Shown here: positions 2,156 through 56,761 of the stretch, piece after piece
Position numbering within the stretch: the first letter of the stretch is position 1
Layout: the number at the start of each line of letters is the position of its first letter
From: a virus
Virus record (IMG/VR): IMGVR_UViG_3300050130_000093
Span: 1-62,938 of that record
Length of the DNA: 62,938 nt
Strand: one strand, 5' to 3'
The notes under the pieces: model-generated
Told to the model about the DNA's origin: nothing
The model's input: the letters and a program-made list of their open reading frames with translations, nothing else
Database searches by the model: none
Program-made: the position numbers and the translations under genes

Positions 2156-2415
2156 GCCGTCACCCACTAGACCGCCGTCGCGGCGACTACGGCTACAACA
2201 TCCGCGCGGTCTGCCGGTGCGGCCACACGGCGTATTGGCACGGCCAGCCTGGAGGCGCCCCGGACGGGTCGGGTGAGTGCGACCACTGCCCGTGTGCTCG
2301 GTTTGCCGAGGCGGCGCAGGGCATCCCGCTCGATGCGTTCGGCCCGGTGGCTGTGCGCGGCCTCGGTGATCAGCAGGACGGTCTAGCGACAGCCGAGACG
2401 GAGGAGTATCGCTAA
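2152..2415 (+). CDS. Cys-rich hypothetical protein, 87 aa
   Basis: ATGA overlap with the previous gene fixes the start. Residues 24-45 contain CRCGHTAYWH and CDHCPC, giving five Cys and two His that could form a zinc site; this arrangement is common in short actinophage proteins of unknown function. The C-terminal third is acidic and unstructured. Its stop overlaps the next ATG (TAATG). Confidence 0.6.
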   Translation: MSRHPLDRRRGDYGYNIRAVCRCGHTAYWHGQPGGAPDGSGECDHCPCARFAEAAQGIPLDAFGPVAVRGLGDQQDGLATAETEEYR

Positions 2416-2699
2416 TGGGGCAAAACGAACGTGCAGAACTGGCACCGAAAGCGGCAGAGACGCTGATCACGCTGCCATTGAGAGCCGTGGACTGGCGTGC
2501 CGAGGACGCTATTGAGCGTGACCCGCTGGGCGCGTTGGACGCTCTCGATAGGGCGTGGTTCGAGTACTGGCACGCTGCCGTGGCTGGGCTAATGAACACT
2601 GACGGGAAGCGCCAAGCACTGTGGGCGCTACGCGACGAAATGGGACTGCGACATTTAAGCCGACTGCTCGACCAGGAGAAGGGTCCTGATGGGGTCTAG
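2415..2699 (+). CDS. Hypothetical helical protein, 94 aa
   Basis: ATG overlaps the preceding TAA. Predicted mostly alpha-helical with a run of Trp/Tyr (DRAWFEYWHAAVAGL). No family recognised. The 3' end overlaps the next gene by 11 nt. Confidence 0.55.
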   Translation: MGQNERAELAPKAAETLITLPLRAVDWRAEDAIERDPLGALDALDRAWFEYWHAAVAGLMNTDGKRQALWALRDEMGLRHLSRLLDQEKGPDGV

Positions 2700-2886
2700 C
2701 GCGGGCGGAGATTGGCCGCTCACCGAGCACGAGCACACTCTGATCTTGGCTGCGAGCACACAGGTCTGGACGGGCGAGCTTCGCGCTGCCCTTGCGATGG
2801 CGGTGGAGTATCGCGGCTTCAAAGTGAGCCCATACGACTCGCCCGGCGATCTCGCGGACCTCCTTGAGCAGGTGGGGCGGCGATGA
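2689..2886 (+). CDS. Hypothetical protein, 65 aa
   Basis: Starts inside the end of the previous gene with GGAGAAGGG just upstream. One amphipathic helix region (residues 20-45). It ends in ATGA overlap with the methyltransferase gene. Function not recognisable. Confidence 0.5.
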   Translation: MGSSAGGDWPLTEHEHTLILAASTQVWTGELRAALAMAVEYRGFKVSPYDSPGDLADLLEQVGRR

Positions 2887-3425
2887 CCTACCGGACCATC
2901 GTCGTCGACCCGCCGTGGCGCGTACATCAGCCGCCCGAGTGGAACTACGGCGAGCCTGGCGGCAAGCCAAATCGGCCGGTGCCCTACCCGACGATGACGC
3001 TCGCAGAGATCGCGTGCCTACCCGTCGGCGATATGGCTGCAACCGATTCCCACCTCTACGTGTGGACAATCAACCGCTACATCGAGCAGACCTACAACAT
3101 CGCACGACTGTGGGGATTCAAGCCGTCGACCTTGTTGACGTGGTGCAAGCCACGGAAGGGACTGGGCGTCGGTGGCGCTTACGCGCTTACGACAGAGTTC
3201 ATCCTGTTCAGCCGGCGCGGAAAGGGCGCATTTGAGCGCCGCTGGGACACGTCCTGGTTCGAGTGGCCGCGCGGTGCCCACAGCGCGAAACCCGAGGCAT
3301 TCCTAGACATCGTGGAGCAGGTTTCGCCCGGCCCCTATGTCGAGTTGTTCGCTCGGCGTGCGCGGTTCGGCTGGGACTACTGGGGCGACGAGAGCCTAGG
3401 CACGGCCGAATTGGGGGTCGCATGA
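2883..3425 (+). CDS. MT-A70 family DNA N6-adenine methyltransferase
   Basis: 180 aa. The catalytic DPPW motif is at residues 9-12, right at the N-terminus as in compact phage MT-A70 enzymes. C-terminal PGPYVELFARR matches the family's conserved ELFAR SAM-binding segment. It likely methylates adenine in phage DNA, either to evade host restriction or for regulation; the sequence specificity cannot be read. No partner restriction gene is visible. Start and stop both overlap neighbours, so it belongs to the coupled operon. Confidence 0.9.
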   Translation: MTYRTIVVDPPWRVHQPPEWNYGEPGGKPNRPVPYPTMTLAEIACLPVGDMAATDSHLYVWTINRYIEQTYNIARLWGFKPSTLLTWCKPRKGLGVGGAYALTTEFILFSRRGKGAFERRWDTSWFEWPRGAHSAKPEAFLDIVEQVSPGPYVELFARRARFGWDYWGDESLGTAELGVA

Positions 3426-3469
3426 CACTGCCGCTATCGGGTGTTCCTGGCAGTCCCGACATCCGATGA
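3422..3469 (+). CDS. 15-codon coupling ORF between methyltransferase and HNH-like genes
   Basis: ATG at 3,422 overlaps the methyltransferase stop and its own TGA overlaps the next ATG at 3,466, giving ATGA at both ends. The peptide is MTLPLSGVPGSPDIR. The likely role is to carry ribosomes across a 40-nt gap rather than to make a functional peptide; this is inference from the geometry. Confidence 0.35.
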   Translation: MTLPLSGVPGSPDIR

Positions 3470-3849
3470 CGATGGAACGTAAGCCGCTGCGTCGGCGGTC
3501 GATCGACGGCCCCAGAACTCCGCACATCCAGTTTCGCGCCAAGACACCGGCCAAGATGTTCCGCTGCTACTGCGGGTGCGGCCGGCGAGCCTCTACATTC
3601 CACCATTGGATACCGGTCCGCAAGCTCCGCGAACACGTCCGGGCAATGCGCCTTCCGCTCGACGACGCGCGCAAGGAGCTCTCCCGGCTGGTCCACGATG
3701 AGCGTGGCATGAGTCCGTACGCGCTCACCTGTCACCTTGCGCGGGAGAACCACCATCCACCGTTTCAGCGCATCGAGATCCCCGACGAGACGTGGAACTT
3801 CGCAGAGGAACTCGGGCTGGTCTGGCTGCTCCAGCGTCTCTACCCCTAG
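3466..3849 (+). CDS. HNH-like zinc-binding protein, 127 aa
   Basis: Residues 33-45 contain CYCGCGRRAS followed by FHHWIP, the HH that begins an HNH fold; residues 82-95 have LTCHLARENHH, supplying the closing Cys/His pair. Length and Cys placement fit a small HNH or Zn-finger nuclease, though the central Asn is displaced, so activity is uncertain. A second in-frame ATG at 3,472 is possible. Followed by a 46-nt gap, the first break in the operon. Confidence 0.55.
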   Translation: MTMERKPLRRRSIDGPRTPHIQFRAKTPAKMFRCYCGCGRRASTFHHWIPVRKLREHVRAMRLPLDDARKELSRLVHDERGMSPYALTCHLARENHHPPFQRIEIPDETWNFAEELGLVWLLQRLYP

Positions 3850-30744: not shown

Positions 30745-31431
30745 ATGGGAATCATGGACGCTCACCGCTTCTGGTCGAAGGTGCGTATTGGCGGTCCCGA
30801 CGAGTGTTGGCCGTGGACCGGCGCCAACGACGGCAGGCACGGATACGGCCGCGTCCGGCGATCGTCAGGCCGCGGATGTGTCGCGGCTCATCGCATGGCT
30901 TGGGAACTTACGAACGGCCCGATCCCGGAAGACACGAGCACCTATCACGGCGTCTGCGTCCTGCATCGTTGCGACAACCCGCCGTGCTGCAACCCCACGC
31001 ACCTGTATCTCGGCGGACCCAGCGAAAACGCGCAGGACGCCGTCGATCGCGGCAGACTCGTCGCGCCACACGGCGAAACTCATTGGTGGGCGACACTCAA
31101 CGAGGCCCAGGTGCTTGAGGTTCGACGCCGCTACGCAGCTGGCGAGAACCAGTACGTTCTTGCCGAAGCCTTTGGTGTGCAACAGCCAGCCATCTCGCGC
31201 ATCGTGCGCGGGGAGCGCTGGACCCGGAGCGGCGGCGTGCGCATCGCTGGGCGCCGTCGTCCAGCCCGCGGAGAACAAAGCTCGCTCGCCAAGCTCACCG
31301 AAGCCCAAGTGCGACAGATTCGATCACGTGCCGCCTCTGGCGAGACCGGCAGGGCTCTCGCTGCCGAGTTCGGGATCACGCAGGGCGCGGCGTCAAAGAT
31401 TATCCGTCGCGCTACTTGGGCTCACGTCTGA
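30745..31431 (+). CDS. HNH endonuclease with two tandem C-terminal HTH modules
   Basis: Start at 30,745 (GAGGTG 9 nt upstream) or 30,754; 228 or 225 aa. N-terminal HNH core: HRFWSKV, CWPWTG, VLHRCDNPPCCNPTHLYLG. The C-terminus has two similar helix-turn-helix units, LNEAQVLEVRRRYAAGENQY...QPAISRIVRGERW and LTEAQVRQIRSRAASGETGR...GAASKIIRRATW, a nuclease-associated modular DNA-binding arrangement. TACAAT at 30,741-30,746 could be a -10 box for a leaderless message from 30,754. Convergent with, and overlapping, the methyltransferase gene by 20 nt. Confidence 0.82.
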   Translation: MGIMDAHRFWSKVRIGGPDECWPWTGANDGRHGYGRVRRSSGRGCVAAHRMAWELTNGPIPEDTSTYHGVCVLHRCDNPPCCNPTHLYLGGPSENAQDAVDRGRLVAPHGETHWWATLNEAQVLEVRRRYAAGENQYVLAEAFGVQQPAISRIVRGERWTRSGGVRIAGRRRPARGEQSSLAKLTEAQVRQIRSRAASGETGRALAAEFGITQGAASKIIRRATWAHV

Positions 31432-31906
31432 CGGCCACTGCGGTGAGACCATCGCCCGCATGCGATGACTCCACACTCACGGCTTGTAGCCCAGCGCGCT
31501 CAAGCACCGTAGCGAAGGTGGAGCGGGTGAAAAACGCGAAGTGCGCGTTGCCCTCATAGTCCTGCGAGCCGGCGAGCAGCTCCACCGTCGAATCCCAGTC
31601 GCGCACTCCTGCGTGGTAGTTGGCGACCTGGCCCAGCACGTCCGGGACCACTATCTCAAGGCGCCCGTCATCCGCAAGGACACGGCCCCACTCACGAAGC
31701 ACCGCCGTGGTCTCGTGCCAAGGGAAGTGTTCGAGCAGGTTGCTCGCGAACACCACGTCGAAGCTGTGATTCGGGTACGGCAGCTTGCGCGCGTCACCCA
31801 GGACGTAAGAACATCCCGTTCGTCCCGACCAGTCGATCGCGTCGAACTGCTCGAAGTCGGTGCGCTGCGGATGCGGGCCGCCGCCAATCTCCAAACCCCG
31901 GCTCAC
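31412..31906 (-). CDS. Class I SAM-dependent methyltransferase
   Basis: 164 aa. Motif I is at the extreme N-terminus (LEIGGGPHPQ), motif II is SFDVVFASNLLEHFPWHET and motif post II is GRVLADDGRLEIVVPD. The fold is a minimal Methyltransf_11 domain. Its stop lies inside the convergent HNH gene end, and its start overlaps a glycosyltransferase stop. It likely methylates a sugar or the modified virion protein rather than DNA; the substrate is not readable. Confidence 0.75.
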   Translation of the reverse strand: MSRGLEIGGGPHPQRTDFEQFDAIDWSGRTGCSYVLGDARKLPYPNHSFDVVFASNLLEHFPWHETTAVLREWGRVLADDGRLEIVVPDVLGQVANYHAGVRDWDSTVELLAGSQDYEGNAHFAFFTRSTFATVLERAGLQAVSVESSHAGDGLTAVAVRREPK

Positions 31907-32805
31907 GCGAGCGCCTCACGGTAGCGCTGCACATGCAAATCCACGACACGCTCAACCGACGCGAAGCCCATCAGTGGCGAGTCGGCAAGCAGGTTCCGCA
32001 GCGTGCGCTCCAACTCATCCTCGTCACGCACCTTCCACAAGTTGCCGGTGCTCTCCAACTCAGCAAACCAAGACGTGTCGTTCACGACGACCGGACGGCG
32101 TGTCGCTATCGCTGTGCGCGCCGCCTGCGACGACCCGGCCATCCCGTTCTCATCGTAGAACAGCACGATCGCATCGGCGCCCCTCAGCCAGTCGTGCAGC
32201 TCACGCCACGGCTTCCACGCCTGACCGCCCAACGCCTGCTCCGACGTCGCGAAGCTCTCGAACACCCAGCCGTTGCGGTCGCAGATCGGGGCGATCACGT
32301 CCTCGCGCGTGCGGCCCAAACCGAACGTCCTGACGATCGCCGGCAACTTGCGGATCGGGAACGGGATGACCTCCGGGCTGCCGGGCCCAACACCGGCGCG
32401 GTGCGTGAACGCGTGAGTGAAGTCGTAGTGGCGCAGCGACGGCGGATTACAGGAATCGTGGTAGGTCACGAACACGGGACCGTCGAAGCGTGCCATCAGC
32501 TCGTGCAGCCGATCGAGCTGGAAAAGCACATTCTCGAATTGGACGTGGATCAGGTCCAGGCCGAGGTCGAGGATCGTCTCCACGTCGAGCGCCCGGTGGC
32601 CGTAGCGGTTCCAGAGCTCCACGTCGAAGCACCGCACCACGTCGAGCTCGACATCGTCCTCTCCGGTCTCGCGCTCGTCGTAGTTGCGCGACCCGAGCAC
32701 GACCAGCTCGACGTCGTCACGTGCCGCGAATCCCTCGGCAAGCGTCCGGCTCATCTGCGCGATCCCGCACTGCGTCGTCCAGCTCGTGAGCAGCCCGACT
32801 CGCAT
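31903..32805 (-). CDS. GT-B fold glycosyltransferase (GT4-like)
   Basis: 300 aa. N-terminal Rossmann start MRVGLLTSWTTQCGIAQMSR and LDLIHVQFENVLFQLDRL; the donor half includes GADAIVLFYDENGMAGSSQA...AIATRRPVVVND, where a GxxGSSxA loop replaces the usual E-x7-E. It would transfer a sugar from a nucleotide-activated donor. Second of a six-gene modification cassette placed among neck genes. Confidence 0.72.
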   Translation of the reverse strand: MRVGLLTSWTTQCGIAQMSRTLAEGFAARDDVELVVLGSRNYDERETGEDDVELDVVRCFDVELWNRYGHRALDVETILDLGLDLIHVQFENVLFQLDRLHELMARFDGPVFVTYHDSCNPPSLRHYDFTHAFTHRAGVGPGSPEVIPFPIRKLPAIVRTFGLGRTREDVIAPICDRNGWVFESFATSEQALGGQAWKPWRELHDWLRGADAIVLFYDENGMAGSSQAARTAIATRRPVVVNDTSWFAELESTGNLWKVRDEDELERTLRNLLADSPLMGFASVERVVDLHVQRYREALA

Positions 32806-33417
32806 CTAGACCAGCGCGAACTTGTCGGTCTCCGCGCGCGTTCCCCACTTCTTCTCGTACGCGTCGAGATCGGCCACGCAGTCGGCTTGGAACTCATCGC
32901 GGATGTCCTGACGGCCCATCGTCGCCGACAACTCATGGATCAGCGGTGTCGGGATCGCCACACGCCGCGCCGGGATCCGCGCATTGACCAGCCGCTTCGC
33001 CAGGTCGATGTCGGAGCACCACAGCGAGAACCGCGAGTCGTACGGGCCGTGTGCGCGCGCCCACTCCGCATCGAACACGACGCACCAGCCGACGATGCAC
33101 TGAAGGCCGTCCGTGCTCGACTGGTCCGGGAAGACGACCGGCGACCACGCGCTGACTGCCGCGAGCAACGGGTCAAGCCACCCCGCCGTCACCTCAACGT
33201 CATCGTTGAGTCCGACGAGGTACTTGCCGGCGCCGGCCATCAGCGCCCGGTTCATCCGCAACGTGTAGTCCCGCACCCGGCTCCCCGACTCGACGATCAC
33301 GACCTCGTAGTCGATGTGCGACGTGTGCTCGTACAGCGACCTGAGCAACGTGCGCAGACGGTCGTGGCCGTCGAGCGACACCACGCAGATCGAGACGAGC
33401 GGCGGATCGTGCGTCAT
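32806..33417 (-). CDS. GT2-family glycosyltransferase
   Basis: 203 aa. PLVSICVVSLDGHDRLRTLL opens the GT-A fold and YLVGLNDDVEV supplies the metal-binding DD. FSLWCSDIDLAKRLV resembles the ED-acceptor motif. Start at 33,417 overlaps the next stop (ATGA). Short but with both halves of a GT-A domain. Confidence 0.75.
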   Translation of the reverse strand: MTHDPPLVSICVVSLDGHDRLRTLLRSLYEHTSHIDYEVVIVESGSRVRDYTLRMNRALMAGAGKYLVGLNDDVEVTAGWLDPLLAAVSAWSPVVFPDQSSTDGLQCIVGWCVVFDAEWARAHGPYDSRFSLWCSDIDLAKRLVNARIPARRVAIPTPLIHELSATMGRQDIRDEFQADCVADLDAYEKKWGTRAETDKFALV

Positions 33418-34763
33418 ACCGGCGGCTCCCGGGTGCCCCACTTCGTGAAGTAGTAGTCGGCGTTCGCGCGAGCGTCCGCGTCGGTGTCGCGCTTGCTGCG
33501 CGTCCCCATTCCGACGTGATAGACCAGCGACCGCGGCGTCGTCACCACGCGCCAGCCAGCGTTGATCAGGCGACGGTTCATGTCCCAGTCCTCGTATCCG
33601 CCGATCCCGAGGTAGCCCTCGTCGAAGAGCCCGATCTCGTCGAGCGCGAGACGCCGGATCAGGTAGCACTGCTCGTGGCCATCGATCATCGTCGCTGGCA
33701 GCGGGTCGCGCGTGTTCGCCGAGCACACCTTGCCGACCTTCGGCCAGCACCGCAGCTCGGTCAGCAGACCGTTCAGCCACTCCGGGTCATCGAAAAGCAT
33801 GTCTGGATGGATCCAGCCGATGTAGTCGAAGCTGCGCTCACGGAAGTGGGAGAAGCCCTCGTTCAGCGACTCACACAGCGACTGCTCGTCGCCGTTGTAG
33901 CAGAACCACAACTCGGCATGATCGCCGACCGTCTCATGGAACGTGTTGAGCGCCTCGCCGCGGACCGGCGGATCGTCGTGGTGCAGGATCATCACAAACC
34001 CGACCGTCGGCGGATCCCACGGCCGCTCCCCAGCAAGCTCATGCGGACAGAACGGCACATCCTTGAGCGCCTCAGCCGCGACCTCGGGCCACTCCATCTC
34101 CAGCCGCCTCGCCACGCTCACGCGGTCGCTGATGATCGTGTCCGGGTTCTGGCCGTCGTAGTGGCGGAAGTCACCGACGAGGTCCGCGTAGAACTTCCAG
34201 CGGTCGAACACCGCGCGCTGCCCGCGAATGTAGCTCGCGTGGAACCAGCGGTACGGCGCGACGACCGGATTGGTGCGCGTCGTCAGCAGCGTCTCGTGCA
34301 CCTTGCCGATCCACTGCGTGCCGGCGCCCAGCTTGTAGATCACCTCACGCGGAAAGACCGCCTGAACCGCGTCCTGGTAGACCACGAAGTGCATGAACTC
34401 GGCCGTGATCGAGTCGGCGCCCTGGGCTAGAAGCTCGTGGACGATGCCCGCGAACTCCGGGGCGTGGATGTCGTCGGCGTCGAGCCAGAGCACGAACGGG
34501 TGCGAGTTGGTGTGGTCGATCATCGCGAGCGCCTGGTTGCGCGCCTCCGCGAAGCTGAAACCGTCCGGCCCCTGCTTGTACTCGGCGTAGCGCAGCTTGC
34601 TCGACGGCACCGTCGCGAACACCTTCTCGCGGTTCTCGCGGCCACCCGGCGTGTCCGGATGCGTGTTGACACACGCCACCGAGTCAACCCACGACACAGA
34701 CTCCAGGGCGGCTTCAAGGAAGGGCTCGCAGAACTGACCGACGAGTAGCTGCGCGGTGATCAT
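33414..34763 (-). CDS. Fused two-domain glycosyltransferase (GT2-GT2)
   Basis: 449 aa. The N-terminal GT-A domain has FVLWLDADDIH with D95-A-D97 and a helical insert. From about residue 255 a second GT-A-like domain begins (TVGFVMILHHDDP), with YIGWIHPDMLFDDPEW as its acidic motif and GYEDWDMNRRLINAGW as an ED-like acceptor site. The C-terminal part aligns with the adjacent 203-aa enzyme (GxxGxEDWDxxxR versus CSDIDLAKRL). One protein may thus add two sugars, or one domain may only bind. Confidence 0.75.
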   Translation of the reverse strand: MITAQLLVGQFCEPFLEAALESVSWVDSVACVNTHPDTPGGRENREKVFATVPSSKLRYAEYKQGPDGFSFAEARNQALAMIDHTNSHPFVLWLDADDIHAPEFAGIVHELLAQGADSITAEFMHFVVYQDAVQAVFPREVIYKLGAGTQWIGKVHETLLTTRTNPVVAPYRWFHASYIRGQRAVFDRWKFYADLVGDFRHYDGQNPDTIISDRVSVARRLEMEWPEVAAEALKDVPFCPHELAGERPWDPPTVGFVMILHHDDPPVRGEALNTFHETVGDHAELWFCYNGDEQSLCESLNEGFSHFRERSFDYIGWIHPDMLFDDPEWLNGLLTELRCWPKVGKVCSANTRDPLPATMIDGHEQCYLIRRLALDEIGLFDEGYLGIGGYEDWDMNRRLINAGWRVVTTPRSLVYHVGMGTRSKRDTDADARANADYYFTKWGTREPPV

Positions 34764-35002
34764 CGACCCGGCCGCTCATCCGTCACGCCCAACATCACCG
34801 GCGGCGTCCCTTCGCCCCAGACCATCAGCTCGATGTTGTCGCCAGCCGCGATCGCCGCACGCTCCTTCTTCGACGGCTCCCACACCGAACGGACGATCGG
34901 CTTGCCGTTCTCCTCAAGCTGCTCGCACCAAAGATCGCTATCTTCAGTGCCTCCCGGCAGCCGGAACACGAAGTTGCTCGACGGTGTCCTACGCGGCTTC
35001 AC
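34760..35002 (-). CDS. Small protein within glycosylation cassette, 80 aa
   Basis: GTG at 35,002 overlaps the upstream stop (GTGA). Beta-rich with NFVFRLPGGTEDSDLWCEQL and IELMVWGEGTPPVML. Conserved-looking small protein of unknown role, not a glycosyltransferase. It could be a structural protein (acceptor?) or a stray neck gene stranded in the cassette. Confidence 0.5.
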   Translation of the reverse strand: MKPRRTPSSNFVFRLPGGTEDSDLWCEQLEENGKPIVRSVWEPSKKERAAIAAGDNIELMVWGEGTPPVMLGVTDERPGR

Positions 35003-36087
35003 TTCGACGCCTTCTCCCACAGCTCGCTGATCGCCGCCAACCACTTGCTCGCACATCGCGGCCACGACCAACGATCCATTGCGATCGCCGCACGCGTGCC
35101 CATCGCGCCGTTGGCAGTCCGGTCGCTCGCGGCCTTGCGCATCGCAGCCCGCAGCTCGCTGACGGAAGGAACACAAAAGCTGCCGATCGGCTGTCTGCCC
35201 GCGACGCCGGCGCTGTAGCTCGAGCACTCCAACGGCGCCGGCTCAAGCCCGTCGATCCCCGTCACGTAGCAGTGATCCGGATCCGCGAGCTCGTGCAGTC
35301 CGCCCCAGTCCGTCAAGATCACCGGCGTCCCGCAGGCCATTGCTTCCCGTGGCGTGAGCCCCGACGCCTCGCCGCGGCTGCATGCGATGAAGCAGTCCGC
35401 GTCCCGGTAGGTCTGGCGCATCTGATCGCGCGTGTAGTCCTGGTCGATCACGCTGATCCGCGGATCGTCAACCGACTCACCGCCGGTGTCCAAGTGGCCG
35501 TTGCGGGTCTTCAACCACAGCCGGACCGGCTCGTCACGATCGAACTCCTCACGGAACGCGCGGATCGCGTACTCGACGCCCTTGCGGTAGTGCAGCAGCC
35601 CGGCCATCAGGAACCAGAACTCGGCGCCGTAGCCCTTCTCGCGCTCCGGCGTGTAGAAGGCGGTGTCGACGCCGAGCGGCGCCACCTTGATCGGCACCTT
35701 CACGCCGCCCCGCTCGAACGCGTCGGCGCAGTGCTGCGACGGCACGATCAGCCCGTCCGTCGCGTTGCACGGCCCGACCCAGAACGGCGGGATCGCGTCG
35801 GTCTCGAACATCGTCATGCCGACCGTCACCTTCGAGCGGAACTCCGGCCTGGTGAACGCGAACGGCAGGAAGTAGACGACGCTCAACGGCCGCTCCGCGA
35901 CCTCGCTGGTGGGCTTCTGCAAGGCGAGGAACTCGGGGCTTGAGTGCTCGGGCTGGTTCCAGTCGTGCACGACGAATGCGACGTCGGCGCCAAGGTCACG
36001 GGCGGCGAGCACAAGCTGCTCCGCCGAGTGGCCGTATCCGTCAGCGCCAGCGAGCGGGCCGACGAGCGTGAACGGCGGAAGCCTCAC
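34999..36087 (-). CDS. GT4-family glycosyltransferase
   Basis: 362 aa, GTG start at 36,087 in GTGA overlap. Signature blocks: LAGADGYGHSAEQLVLAA (acceptor side), PLGVDTAFYTPE, LMAGLLHYRKGVEYAIRAF and CSRGEASGLTPREAMACGTP (the E-x7-E donor motif). A full-length GT-B retaining enzyme. Same operon as the GT2 genes, so several different linkages may be built. Confidence 0.85.
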   Translation of the reverse strand: MRLPPFTLVGPLAGADGYGHSAEQLVLAARDLGADVAFVVHDWNQPEHSSPEFLALQKPTSEVAERPLSVVYFLPFAFTRPEFRSKVTVGMTMFETDAIPPFWVGPCNATDGLIVPSQHCADAFERGGVKVPIKVAPLGVDTAFYTPEREKGYGAEFWFLMAGLLHYRKGVEYAIRAFREEFDRDEPVRLWLKTRNGHLDTGGESVDDPRISVIDQDYTRDQMRQTYRDADCFIACSRGEASGLTPREAMACGTPVILTDWGGLHELADPDHCYVTGIDGLEPAPLECSSYSAGVAGRQPIGSFCVPSVSELRAAMRKAASDRTANGAMGTRAAIAMDRWSWPRCASKWLAAISELWEKASK

Positions 36088-36821
36088 TCGACCATCCCCA
36101 TCGTCCCGAGCATCTCCGGCTCCATCACGTGCGGCGCGTACAGCCCCGTCAGCCACGCCGTCTTGAAGCCGTGAAAGTCCAGCGACTGCGCGAAGCCGGC
36201 ATCCTCGCCCGTCTCGTGGTACGCGTACGCGCAGTCCTCGGCGACCCAGCGCGGCATCATCACCGCCGCCATCGGAATGTCCACCTCAAGCACGCCGCCG
36301 TTCTCGTGCTCCACCTGCTCGAAGGTCGCGCGCTCCCACGCCCTCGTCTCCGAGCGATCGTAGGTGCGCCAGAACCCGGCGTTGTAGCAGCGCGACTCCG
36401 GACCCAGCTTGTGCAGGTAGGTCAACGGCGACGCGACCGGCAGGTAGTGCAGAGCGTCCAGCAGTTGCTCGATCGACGTCGGGTCGGTCAGGAACACGTC
36501 GGTGTCGAGCGAGAAGAACACGTCGGCGTCCATGCGCAGCGCGTGGCGCAGCAGCGTGTTGCGGTGCTTGGCGAGCTGCGTGAACGCGAGCGCCCGGTCC
36601 TCATTGCGGCGGCCGCGCGGGATGAACGGCTCCGCCGCGAACTCGATGTACACCTCCGCCTCCTGCTGCTTGCGCTCAAGGAGATCGAGCGTTCCGTCGG
36701 CGCTCTCGCTGTAGACGAACGCGAACGCGTCGGGCTTCACCGTCTGACGCTCCAAGCAGTCCAGCCACTTCGGGAGCGCCCAAGCCCTCTCGGCCACCGG
36801 CGCTCCGACCACGAGCCTCAC
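36084..36821 (-). CDS. GT-A fold glycosyltransferase
   Basis: 245 aa, GTG start at 36,821 in GTGA overlap. RLVVGAPVAERAWALPKWLD is the opening strand and FFSLDTDVFLTDP holds the DxD (D-T-D). Resembles GT2 or GT_92-like enzymes that act on proteins or glycans. First enzyme of the cassette in transcription order. Confidence 0.72.
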   Translation of the reverse strand: MRLVVGAPVAERAWALPKWLDCLERQTVKPDAFAFVYSESADGTLDLLERKQQEAEVYIEFAAEPFIPRGRRNEDRALAFTQLAKHRNTLLRHALRMDADVFFSLDTDVFLTDPTSIEQLLDALHYLPVASPLTYLHKLGPESRCYNAGFWRTYDRSETRAWERATFEQVEHENGGVLEVDIPMAAVMMPRWVAEDCAYAYHETGEDAGFAQSLDFHGFKTAWLTGLYAPHVMEPEMLGTMGMVE

Positions 36822-37279
36822 TGCGCCGCGAGAACGAAGCCAGCGCCGTTGCAGCCCGCGCACGGCTCGCCGGGCTTCTCGGGCGTCTCGCCGCGCCCGT
36901 TGCACGTCGCGCAAAGCTCGCGGTCGACCTCGACGGGCTCGCCCATCATCTCGGCGATCTGCTCGTCCGACGGTGAGTCCTGCTCGTCTACGGGCACCCC
37001 AGCTTCAAGCTTGTCGAGCATCGCCAGCACGCTCGTCGCGAACCGCCGCAGCGACGGCAGATCCCAAGGCACCGAAACCTCCTCGGTGGGTGGCAACGGC
37101 GCGGGCGGATACTGCAGCACCATCTCCAAGCCGTTGTTGATCGCCGGCTCGAACAGGATGTTCACGTGCGGATAGCGCCTGCGCGGCGCGGACCTGCGCG
37201 GCTGCGCCGGCTGCGCCGCCATCGCTGCGGCAATCTCGTCCGGACGCGGCATCCGCGGCCCACCCGAGTTCCTGCTCAT
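36818..37279 (-). CDS. Zinc-knuckle protein with DnaJ-like CxxCxGxG repeats
   Basis: 153 aa from ATG 37,279 (37,297 is an alternative). The Pro/Arg-rich N-terminus (PAQPRRSAPRRRYPH) is followed by a helical middle and ends in CATCNGRGE...CAGCNGAGF, one zinc-binding pair as in DnaJ. The same motif occurs in the capsid protease of this phage, suggesting a shared origin or partner. It may be an assembly factor. Confidence 0.55.
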   Translation of the reverse strand: MSRNSGGPRMPRPDEIAAAMAAQPAQPRRSAPRRRYPHVNILFEPAINNGLEMVLQYPPAPLPPTEEVSVPWDLPSLRRFATSVLAMLDKLEAGVPVDEQDSPSDEQIAEMMGEPVEVDRELCATCNGRGETPEKPGEPCAGCNGAGFVLAAQ

Positions 37280-54539: not shown

Positions 54540-54758
54540 TTACGGATCCTGAACGGTTCGGCTGTCCTTGACGATTCCGTGGAGTCGTGCCCTAGACAAC
54601 CCTGTCGCGGTCGCCAACTGTTGATATGTGGCGCCTTGTTTGACGAGCTCCGCGAAATACGCGTTTCGAACGGTCCGTTTCGCTTCGTAGAGCGCGAACG
54701 CTTCGCGCTGATCGTCTTCGACGCGTTGCGCCTCGTCTAGCTGTTCTGGAGTGATCAT
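54540..54758 (-). CDS. Small HTH protein, 72 aa
   Basis: Start ATG 54,758 overlaps the previous stop. YQQLATATGLSRARLHGIVK is a helix-turn-helix; the N-terminal half is a long acidic helix. A regulatory or DNA-binding protein of the early region. Upstream of terminase genes. Confidence 0.6.
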   Translation of the reverse strand: MITPEQLDEAQRVEDDQREAFALYEAKRTVRNAYFAELVKQGATYQQLATATGLSRARLHGIVKDSRTVQDP

Positions 54759-54949
54759 CAGTCCCACCGCCTTACGATTGCCGCGTACTCGCGCTCAAGG
54801 ACACGGCGCGTGTCTAGGATCGCTCCGAGACTCGCGCCGGAAACGTCGAGCGTCGTTTCGAGGTGGCGCAGCTCGGCAAGTGCCCGGTCGATGTGGCCGG
54901 ACACCTCCATATCACGCCGATGGTCGCGGCTCATTTGGTCGTCTTCCAT
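54758..54949 (-). CDS. Hypothetical helical protein, 63 aa
   Basis: One long helix (HIDRALAELRHLETTLDVSG...RRVLEREYAAIVRRWD). In the coupled early cluster. No family recognised. Confidence 0.5.
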   Translation of the reverse strand: MEDDQMSRDHRRDMEVSGHIDRALAELRHLETTLDVSGASLGAILDTRRVLEREYAAIVRRWD

Positions 54950-54961
54950 GGTTCGTCCTTT

Positions 54962-55324
54962 CTAGTCGTTGGTTGCGCAATCCTCGAGCGACCGCAGAAA
55001 CGTGTCGGATGGTGGCGTGTAGCGGAACGGTCCGCCTGTCGAACGTGACCGTCCCTGCCGTGCTGCTTCGCGCTCAAGCGCCCGGTCGTCGATCGAGACC
55101 GCGGCGCCGGCAAGCTGGAGCGCGTGACGGATCCTCCTGCGCTTGTGATGCAGGAAGTGCGTCAACGCGAATCCGCCGGCGATGATGTCCGCCCACATTC
55201 CCAGACGGTCTAGCGGGATCCCTGCAGGTTTGACACTGTTCAGACCGGACGCTGCGCCGGCAGTCGCTAGAGCGATCGCTGAGGCTTCGACACGGCGCAG
55301 CACGTGGATCTTCGGCAACTTCAT
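54962..55324 (-). CDS. Hypothetical protein, 120 aa
   Basis: ATG 55,324 overlaps the previous stop (ATGA). Helical, partly hydrophobic (ASAIALATAGAASGLNSV, WADIIAGGFALTHFLHHKRR), with a basic C-terminus. May contact membrane or nucleic acid; cannot be decided. Confidence 0.5.
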   Translation of the reverse strand: MKLPKIHVLRRVEASAIALATAGAASGLNSVKPAGIPLDRLGMWADIIAGGFALTHFLHHKRRRIRHALQLAGAAVSIDDRALEREAARQGRSRSTGGPFRYTPPSDTFLRSLEDCATND

Positions 55325-55803
55325 CGCGGCACCGCAACGCAATCCGCATCGGCGACGTAGTACGGATCGACGGCCGCTAGAAAGTCGCCATGCCAGCGGG
55401 CGCAGCATTCCGTGACGTACTCAAGCGACACGGGGCCGCCGATCTTCGCGAGTCCAGTGCGCATCGCGGGCGAAACGACTGCGAGCGTTGACCATTCGCA
55501 GTCTTCCTCACCGATCCACACTTCTACGGCGCCGGGTGCTTCGTCGACGCGTTGATAGCGCTCGCTCGTGATGATCCTGCGGCCGATCTTCGCTACGTAG
55601 CCTGTATGACCTGTGCGGCGTGCCGCTTCGATCGTTTCGGGCCGTAGTCCGAGCTCGTCGACGATCGCGACGCATCCGCCGTGACCTGGCGTGCTGAACC
55701 AGTAGATACCGGGTGCGATCTTCGTTTGCGACTGAACCGGGCTGCCCCAAAGATCGGCGGCCATCTGTCGCGCAAGCGCGCTAGGTGTCGTTCCGTTCGT
55801 CAT
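55321..55803 (-). CDS. Conserved hypothetical (DUF7007-like), leaderless or SD start
   Basis: 160 aa from ATG 55,803 behind AAGGACAGACA. ATG 55,836 is in frame and sits 6 nt after the -10 hexamer of a strong promoter, so a leaderless 171-aa form is possible. Contains IYWFSTPGHGGCVAIVDEL, similar to DUF7007-type phage proteins, and GEEDCEWSTLAVV. First gene of its minus-strand early cluster, which runs toward terminase. Confidence 0.6.
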   Translation of the reverse strand: MTNGTTPSALARQMAADLWGSPVQSQTKIAPGIYWFSTPGHGGCVAIVDELGLRPETIEAARRTGHTGYVAKIGRRIITSERYQRVDEAPGAVEVWIGEEDCEWSTLAVVSPAMRTGLAKIGGPVSLEYVTECCARWHGDFLAAVDPYYVADADCVAVPR

Positions 55804-55842
55804 TGTCTGTCCTTGGTTCGTTGGTTGAGACTGCATGCTGCA

Positions 55843-55871
55843 AGCATCCTCCGCGCCGCCCGCTTTGTCAA
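55843..55871 (-). promoter_or_regulatory. Divergent early promoter, minus arm
   Basis: Minus-strand -35 TTGACA (55,866-55,871), 17-bp spacer, -10 GATGCT (55,843-55,848). ACGCGTTC lies 4 bp before the CCC that precedes the -35. The first ATG (55,836) is at the expected +1. Confidence 0.8.
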
Positions 55872-55934
55872 GGGTCCGGAACGCGTCTTAACAATCCAGT
55901 GGCGCAGTCATTCATTAGAACGCGTTCGTCGCCC

Positions 55935-55963
55935 TTGACAAAACATCAGCCGCAGGGGATACT
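55935..55963 (+). promoter_or_regulatory. Divergent early promoter, plus arm
   Basis: -35 TTGACA (55,935-55,940), 17-bp spacer, -10 GATACT (55,958-55,963). Mirrors the minus arm, including ACGCGTTC plus 4 bp plus CCCTTGACA. A GAACGCGTTC palindrome at 55,919-55,928 is a candidate operator. The first ATG is 7 nt after the -10. Confidence 0.82.
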
Positions 55964-55970
55964 CGCGCAT

Positions 55971-56006
55971 ATGAAGTTCAAACCCAATCCAAGGACACGC
56001 CGATGA
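55971..56006 (+). CDS. 11-aa leader peptide ORF
   Basis: MKFKPNPRTRR, starting at the predicted transcription start and ending in ATGA overlap with the zinc protein. The sequence parallels the first codons of the minus-strand gene. Probably a leaderless entry ORF that feeds ribosomes into the next gene. Confidence 0.45.
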   Translation: MKFKPNPRTRR

Positions 56007-56179
56007 CATCTCACGATCGACACCTAGAGCCCGACGACGTCTGCGAGCGCTGCGGCGCGCCGTTTCGTTTCGCACGCTGCCCGTACTGCGCCGACGAGCG
56101 AGCTGAGCGAGACGCCGACACGAAGCTGTCCGACCCGGACTTTGACCGCGTGACGCTGCGCTACCGGGACGAGCTGTGA
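56003..56179 (+). CDS. Zinc-ribbon protein, 58 aa
   Basis: AAGGACACGCCG precedes the ATG. CERCGAPFRFARCPYC is a two-pair zinc ribbon, followed by an acidic tail. The only gene on the plus side of the divergent promoter before a long gene-free stretch, so its transcript would run into 56,180-56,761. Role unknown. Confidence 0.6.
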   Translation: MTSHDRHLEPDDVCERCGAPFRFARCPYCADERAERDADTKLSDPDFDRVTLRYRDEL

Positions 56180-56194
56180 ATCTCCACGCCTGAG

Positions 56195-56211
56195 CCGTTC
56201 CGCACCGTTCT
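56195..56211 (+). repeat. Repeated CCGTTC-N4-CCGTTCT motif
   Basis: Shares its 5' extension CGCCTGAG with the copy at 60,385. Sixteen nt beyond the zinc gene's stop. Confidence 0.45.
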
Positions 56212-56614
56212 CACGGCGTCGCGCACGGACCGAAGGGCAGCGTTCAGCCTAGACGTCTGAAAGGTCGGACGGCGGTCCTGACGCACCCCGAAACGCTAAC
56301 GGCCTCCGGTCAGGCTGGAGTCCGACAACCACCCTGCCGCGCGTGTTGGCCGATGATGAGTCGACCGTGAGTGTCACCCGCCGTCCGAATCTAGATTCTA
56401 GACGCCAAAACCTGGGTGGATGGTACGGACGTCGCGAGAATTCGCCAACCGGCCCGGCAATTTCGGCCGCGCGACGATTCCCGGCCAACATCGCCAGAGC
56501 TCATCCCAGGATTCCCTTGGGGTGGTCCCCCTCAAGGACGGGCGTCACCGGCCGCTGGGTGAACGAAAAGCTGGGTGGACCGAATGGCTTTCTCGGCATT
56601 GCCAAAACCGGCCC

Positions 56615-56651
56615 AGCGCTAGCGCGTGTTTAGCGCTTAGCGCTCAGCGCT
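56615..56651. repeat. Four AGCGCT iterons
   Basis: Copies begin at 56,615, 56,632, 56,639 and 56,646, with an AGCGCG near-copy at 56,621. Palindromic hexamers at 7-bp period, so they do not lie on one face of the helix. Confidence 0.6.
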
Positions 56652-56761
56652 GACCAAATCAGGAGATCCCCCCCTCCTTTCCCCTCACGCCCACAGTCGA
56701 TCCCACAGACGCTCAGTCGCCCGCCACACAATCACGAACACCGCCGCCTCGGCCAGTTTGG

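Follow-up and report, generated by a model that had tools for sequence, protein, structure and literature searches.

The window analyzed here is the whole stretch of DNA, a 62,938-bp virus record in which the structural genes lie on the minus strand and two genes diverge at 55.9 kb. Read outward from the point of divergence, both arms carry, in the same order, ACGCGTTC, a 4-bp gap, CCCTTGACA, a 17-bp spacer, GATRCT, 6 or 7 nt, an ATG, CCAAGGACA and a second start in ATGAC, and the mirrored region formed by the two arms spans 55,781–56,027. On the left arm (minus strand), ACGCGTTC at 55,879–55,886 is the left copy of a candidate operator half, and its palindrome is imperfect (AGACGCGTTC). It is followed after 4 bp by CCCTTGACA, i.e., CCC plus the −35 hexamer TTGACA (55,866–55,874), and 17 bp later by the −10 hexamer GATGCT (55,843–55,848). 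The first ATG (55,834–55,836), the predicted +1, is located 6 nt past the −10, and the Shine–Dalgarno-like (SD) site CCAAGGACA (55,808–55,816) leads to a second, in-frame start codon at 55,801–55,803. The gene opened in this way (55,321–55,836) encodes a DUF7007 protein of 171 aa from the first ATG or 160 aa from the SD-led ATG at 55,803; mirror alignment places the left copy of a downstream block, CGACACCTAG, at 55,781–55,790. On the right arm (plus strand), GAACGCGTTC, a perfect 10-bp palindrome and candidate operator at 55,918–55,927, includes ACGCGTTC at 55,920–55,927, with CCCTTGACA (again CCC plus TTGACA) 4 bp further at 55,932–55,940 and the −10 hexamer GATACT after 17 bp at 55,958–55,963. 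The ATG at 55,971, 7 nt past the −10, begins an 11-aa leader ORF (MKFKPNPRTRR, 55,971–56,006), CCAAGGACA is found at 55,989–55,997, and the TGA of the leader overlaps the next ATG, at 56,003. This second start opens a 58-aa zinc-ribbon-like protein with a CxxC-x8-CxxC pattern (56,003–56,179), and the right copy of CGACACCTAG was aligned at 56,018–56,027. Every element and spacing that a preliminary description had claimed for the two arms is present at its position. About 580 bp devoid of convincing genes (56,180–56,760) separate the zinc gene from a convergent AAA ATPase gene; this stretch has overlapping AGCGCT repeats at 56,615–56,655 and no significant fold.

The spaced hexamer pair TTGACA-N16..18-GATRCT occurs only at these two sites in 62.9 kb, against 0.02 expected; the left arm also fits TTGACA-N17-GATRCT, and the divergent pair is the sole strong sigma-70-like promoter region between 53 and 63 kb. 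A third CGACACCTA is located near the left end of the window, at 42–50, immediately preceding ACAAGGAGGT. The left protein matches Pfam PF22653 (DUF7007) with E=7.5e-9; as the match begins at residue 28, the domain cannot decide between the two left starts, and the 11-residue extension lies outside it and displays no GC3 bias (0.45). The zinc-ribbon-like ORF has a coding-like GC content by codon position (0.72/0.48/0.79), and its match to Pfam DZR (E=0.0017) is below the cut-off.

In single-sequence scans of viral contigs, neither the DUF7007 protein nor the zinc protein nor TerL had a relative; the DUF7007 protein and the capsid candidate had none among annotated phages, and the DUF7007 protein none among plasmids. 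An alignment search with TerL returned relatives at 28–36% only. The methyltransferase of the window is 46% identical to those of Gordonia phages and its AAA ATPase 46% to one from an Actinomycetes MAG; a related AAA ATPase is also encoded at L229, an Actinomycetes locus, in whose genome neither a DUF7007 match nor a relative of TerL turned up. The host of the phage is probably actinobacterial, a weak assignment based on such sequence matches. Among the structural genes, a minus-strand gene run at 31,400–36,900 is sugar-transfer/methyltransferase-like, as judged by N-terminal sequence only. The combination ACGCGTTC-N4-CCCTTGACA was absent from the viral contigs scanned, so this pairing of operator and promoter has been seen in this phage only, and loci with the same promoter architecture have almost no other proteins in common with the window.

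To assess the mirror similarity, the two 125-nt arms were aligned locally and compared with dinucleotide shuffles and with windows of the same geometry across the genome. The arms score 32; the mean of 5,000 shuffles was 8.4 and their maximum 18, a maximum shared by the 8,860 same-geometry windows. A cross-phage null was also built, in which the arms of 90 divergent promoter pairs from phage loci were cross-paired between different phages of similar GC and pairings scoring 40 or more were taken out as homologues; the remaining 4,962 pairings gave a mean of 8.8, a 99.9th percentile of 17 and a maximum of 19. A shared promoter consensus is thus insufficient to account for the score of 32, and the mirror is specific to this locus. 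It also extends further than first noted, since CGACACCTAG recurs past the second ATG on both arms. Its offset from the first base of that ATG differs by 2 nt between the left arm (13 nt) and the right (15 nt), a shift out of codon register that favours copied DNA over shared protein. With the functional elements held fixed, the similarity between elements exceeded that of shuffled sequence (p=0.006). Most of it came from the CGACACCTAG block (p=0.0001), and p rose to 0.10 without that block. The two arms match in sequence and spacing and are homologous, and the claim that they are mirror images of one module is borne out both by the alignment score and by similarity beyond the functional signals, carried mainly by CGACACCTAG.

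The arms probably arose by inverted duplication, with later divergence outside the functional sites. It is unlikely that the mirror is instead convergent, one regulator and the same RNA polymerase having selected matching signals on both sides. Such a history would fit the clustering of matches in the functional elements and the non-significant remaining segments, as well as the mirrored pair of another phage, L271, in which the mirror is restricted to the operator and −35 (37 bp). It does not readily explain a shared CGACACCTAG block whose codon frame past the second ATG differs between the arms, the total inter-element similarity, or an order and spacing of ACGCGTTC and CCCTTGACA that is the same on both arms and missing from the viral collection; nor do arms taken from different phages approach the observed score. 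With some 125 bp of inverted symmetry in each arm and the gene-poor stretch directly to the right, the region could also be taken for a long inverted repeat acting mainly as an origin, recombination or packaging site, with the promoters secondary. This is very improbable, given that the longest exact tracts are only about 8–12 bp, that promoter and translation signals account for nearly all shared tracts, and that the adjoining non-coding stretch lacks a strong fold (z=−1.2) and any Rfam match. On the latter two grounds, the DNA-element reading was rejected together with that of a non-coding RNA.

The preliminary description had further proposed that shared operator-like palindromes place both arms under joint control. 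What holds is that ACGCGTTC, the only candidate operator common to the two arms, sits at the same offset on each. Palindromes are not significantly more numerous here than expected by chance (2 vs 0.8, p=0.2), ACGCGT is the only one common to both arms, and the full GAACGCGTTC palindrome is found on the right side only. Copies of ACGCGTTC are enriched in the window (15 vs 6.4), an excess not counted as operator evidence because most of them are inside genes, away from starts. Joint control by a common regulator acting at ACGCGTTC is therefore a weakly supported suggestion. A 75-aa HTH protein (54,540–54,767; phrog_686, E=4e-5), encoded on the strand of the left gene and downstream of it, is a possible candidate for the regulator of the pair.

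Each arm combines an AUG near the predicted 5′ end of its transcript with an SD-led start downstream. The −10 hexamer is placed 6 nt (left) and 7 nt (right) before the first ATG, within the 6–8 nt expected of such starts. No SD site precedes the first ATG on either arm; CCAAGGACA, with its AAGGA, precedes the second at a suitable spacing of 6–7 nt. The two ATGs are 33 nt apart and in frame on the left, and 32 nt apart on the right, where a small ORF ends on the RTGA-type overlap ATGA (56,003–56,006). Folding of the leader RNA revealed no structure. The in-frame extension on the left and the 11-aa leader with its ATGA overlap on the right, as described earlier, are thus real as sequence. As the base after the second ATG is A in both arms, a 1-nt change in length is enough to make an ATGA-coupled leader out of an in-frame extension; the overlap follows automatically from the difference between the arms and is not independent evidence of designed coupling.

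We propose that the divergent pair represents early promoters of the sigma-70/sigma-A type in an uncultured phage that is probably actinobacterial. The pair would have originated by inverted duplication of one module of about 115–125 bp comprising candidate operator, −35 and −10, 5′-proximal ATG, SD site, second ATG and first codons. Each transcript would most likely start at the AUG or within 1–2 nt of it, which would allow two readings, leaderless initiation at the 5′ AUG or SD-led initiation about 33 nt on. The in-frame starts of the left arm would yield the DUF7007 protein with or without the 11-residue extension. On the right, the 1-nt difference in length would produce the 11-aa leader ending on ATGA, and possibly translational coupling to the zinc-ribbon-like gene. 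Taken as a whole, this dual-start reading of a duplicated divergent early promoter pair, with 5′ ends at or near AUG and both leaderless and SD-led translation, is assigned a probability of about 0.58.

Its leaderless part was evaluated by scanning IMG/VR for CTTGACA-N17-GATACT-N6/7-ATG, counting distinct sites among the matches listed. Among these, the ATG was at N6 in 45 and at N7 in 22 of at least 67 distinct sites (p=0.007); it opened an ORF of 40 codons or more at 40/45 N6 sites vs 10/22 N7 sites (Fisher p=0.0003). In a sample of 70 IMG/VR promoters chosen without reference to an ATG, offset 6 was the commonest single ATG offset among the matches listed (5/70), two of the five ATGs being apparently inside genes. 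The N6 excess together with the long ORFs indicates that a minority of promoters in this class genuinely have the leaderless placement. Five other loci (L093, L097, L098, L099 and L106) resemble the left arm in having an in-frame 5′ ATG and, 27–42 nt on, a second ATG or GTG led by a purine-rich SD site. The earlier suggestion of leaderless starts is accordingly upheld as a recurring configuration of the promoter class in other phages, and is tempered by the well-spaced SD start on each arm and by the less favoured N7 on the right, where the RNA may begin with U or A ahead of the AUG. Leaderless starts at this locus are plausible.

Given good SD starts on both arms, translation may begin mainly at the second ATGs, and the fact that these SD starts make leaderless use unnecessary counts against the best explanation. 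An ordinary leadered pair would then result, with duplicated arms translated only from the ATGs at 55,803 and 56,003 and the near-+1 ATGs incidental, inherited from one ancestor. The well-placed AAGGA sites agree with this, as do the lack of codon bias in the leader and the unselected IMG/VR sample, in which, among the matches listed, most promoters have no offset-6 ATG and many have SD-led ATGs at 22–38 nt; moreover, because the arms are homologous, their two 5′ ATGs amount to one observation. We nevertheless consider it somewhat unlikely, in view of the N6 excess with long ORFs seen collection-wide among the matches listed for the same promoter class, the five loci whose 5′ ATG and SD-led start share a frame, and the ability of actinobacteria and E. 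coli to translate 5′-terminal AUGs despite an SD start behind them (PMC4633059, PMC4965119).

Further mirrored divergent pairs were identified in at least three unrelated phages, namely L274 (score 23), L165/L220/L224 (23–25) and L271 (19), compared with the cross-phage maximum of 19. The best parallel is L274 (IMG/VR 3300029319_000079, 2335–3555), which resembles the present pair in its mirrored divergent promoters, its ATGs near the −10 on both arms (N6 on each) and a short leader beside an SD-led gene. It belongs to an unrelated GC-poor phage and differs in sequence and downstream gene: one arm opens a 47-aa ORF; on the other, a 25-aa leader stops 1 nt short of an ArdC-like anti-restriction gene with an SD-led start. 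In GC-rich L271 (4580–5372), the mirrored operator/−35 block is TTGACAACTGTCACGAC; GATACT is followed after 6 nt by the start of the plus-side gene, clearly of HTH regulator type, and the minus-side gene is weakly HTH-like. The mirrored arms of L165 (700–1040; also L220 and L224) are about 125 nt long and have ordinary SD leaders. Separately, GC-poor L244, L254, L262, L275, L278, L295 and L301 share CTTGACATACC(G/T)TG-C(A/G)AATATG(G/A)GATACT-N6-ATG directly opening genes, which looks like a family of leaderless promoters. L260 has three near-identical promoters (2602, 3425 and 5642), each with an N6 ATG that opens a 3-codon ORF within a TGACAC..GTGTCA palindrome, followed by SD-led starts.

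In actinobacterial hosts, leaderless initiation has been documented well; in their phages it has, to our knowledge, rarely been examined. A broader conjecture, which we regard as rather improbable, is that mirrored dual-start pairs are a recurrent phage control device: inverse copying of one module would place two opposite early genes under shared regulation, their translation could be leaderless or SD-led, and isoforms or leader coupling could shift with the state of the ribosomes during infection. If the dual-start reading holds, phages of such hosts would make wide use of an early promoter of the form TTGACA-N17-GATACT-N6-ATG. The start of the gene next to it could then be misassigned by gene callers, and short leader peptides with coupling to early genes would escape annotation. 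The mirrored pair would also illustrate a one-step origin of a divergent regulatory region via inverted duplication.

Several known systems share parts of this arrangement. In mycobacteria, some annotated genes are extended by upstream leaderless RTG starts, and an RTGA tetramer couples some leaderless small ORFs to the start that follows (Shell et al. 2015, PMC4633059). The RTG at +1 behind the −10, the same-frame extension (left) and the RTGA-overlapping small ORF (right) are comparable; those cases are host genes for which 5′-end maps and ribosome footprints are available and which form no mirrored duplicate pair, whereas the starts described here are predicted. In E. coli, mRNAs with a 5′-terminal AUG and an SD-led gene work both ways (Beck et al. 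2016, PMC4965119), so that one mRNA serves as leaderless (5′ uORF) and SD-led, as would the transcripts predicted here; the host is different and single genes are involved, not a divergent mirrored pair. In the telomere phage PY54, divergent cI and cro were both found by RACE to be transcribed as leaderless mRNAs (PMC4488713), which parallels the prediction for the two divergent phage genes here. The PY54 genes form a repressor/Cro switch, for which the portion of that report considered here describes neither mirrored promoter modules nor second SD starts, in contrast to the DUF7007 and zinc-ribbon-like genes of the window. The divergent Prep/PR promoters of mycobacteriophage BPs are likewise from an actinophage and have palindromic operators, which are candidates only in our case; the BPs repressor is known, its operators are placed asymmetrically, and leaderless initiation is unmentioned (PMC4557955). 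Cluster K SAS/ESAS elements are likewise repeated actinophage DNA associated with translation starts and have imperfect inverted repeats close by, but they occur as 11–19 dispersed 13-bp copies rather than two mirrored copies that include the promoter (PMC3203893). We found no description in the open-licence papers searched of a mirrored copy with both kinds of start on each side; the components are known already, and it is this combination that is unusual.
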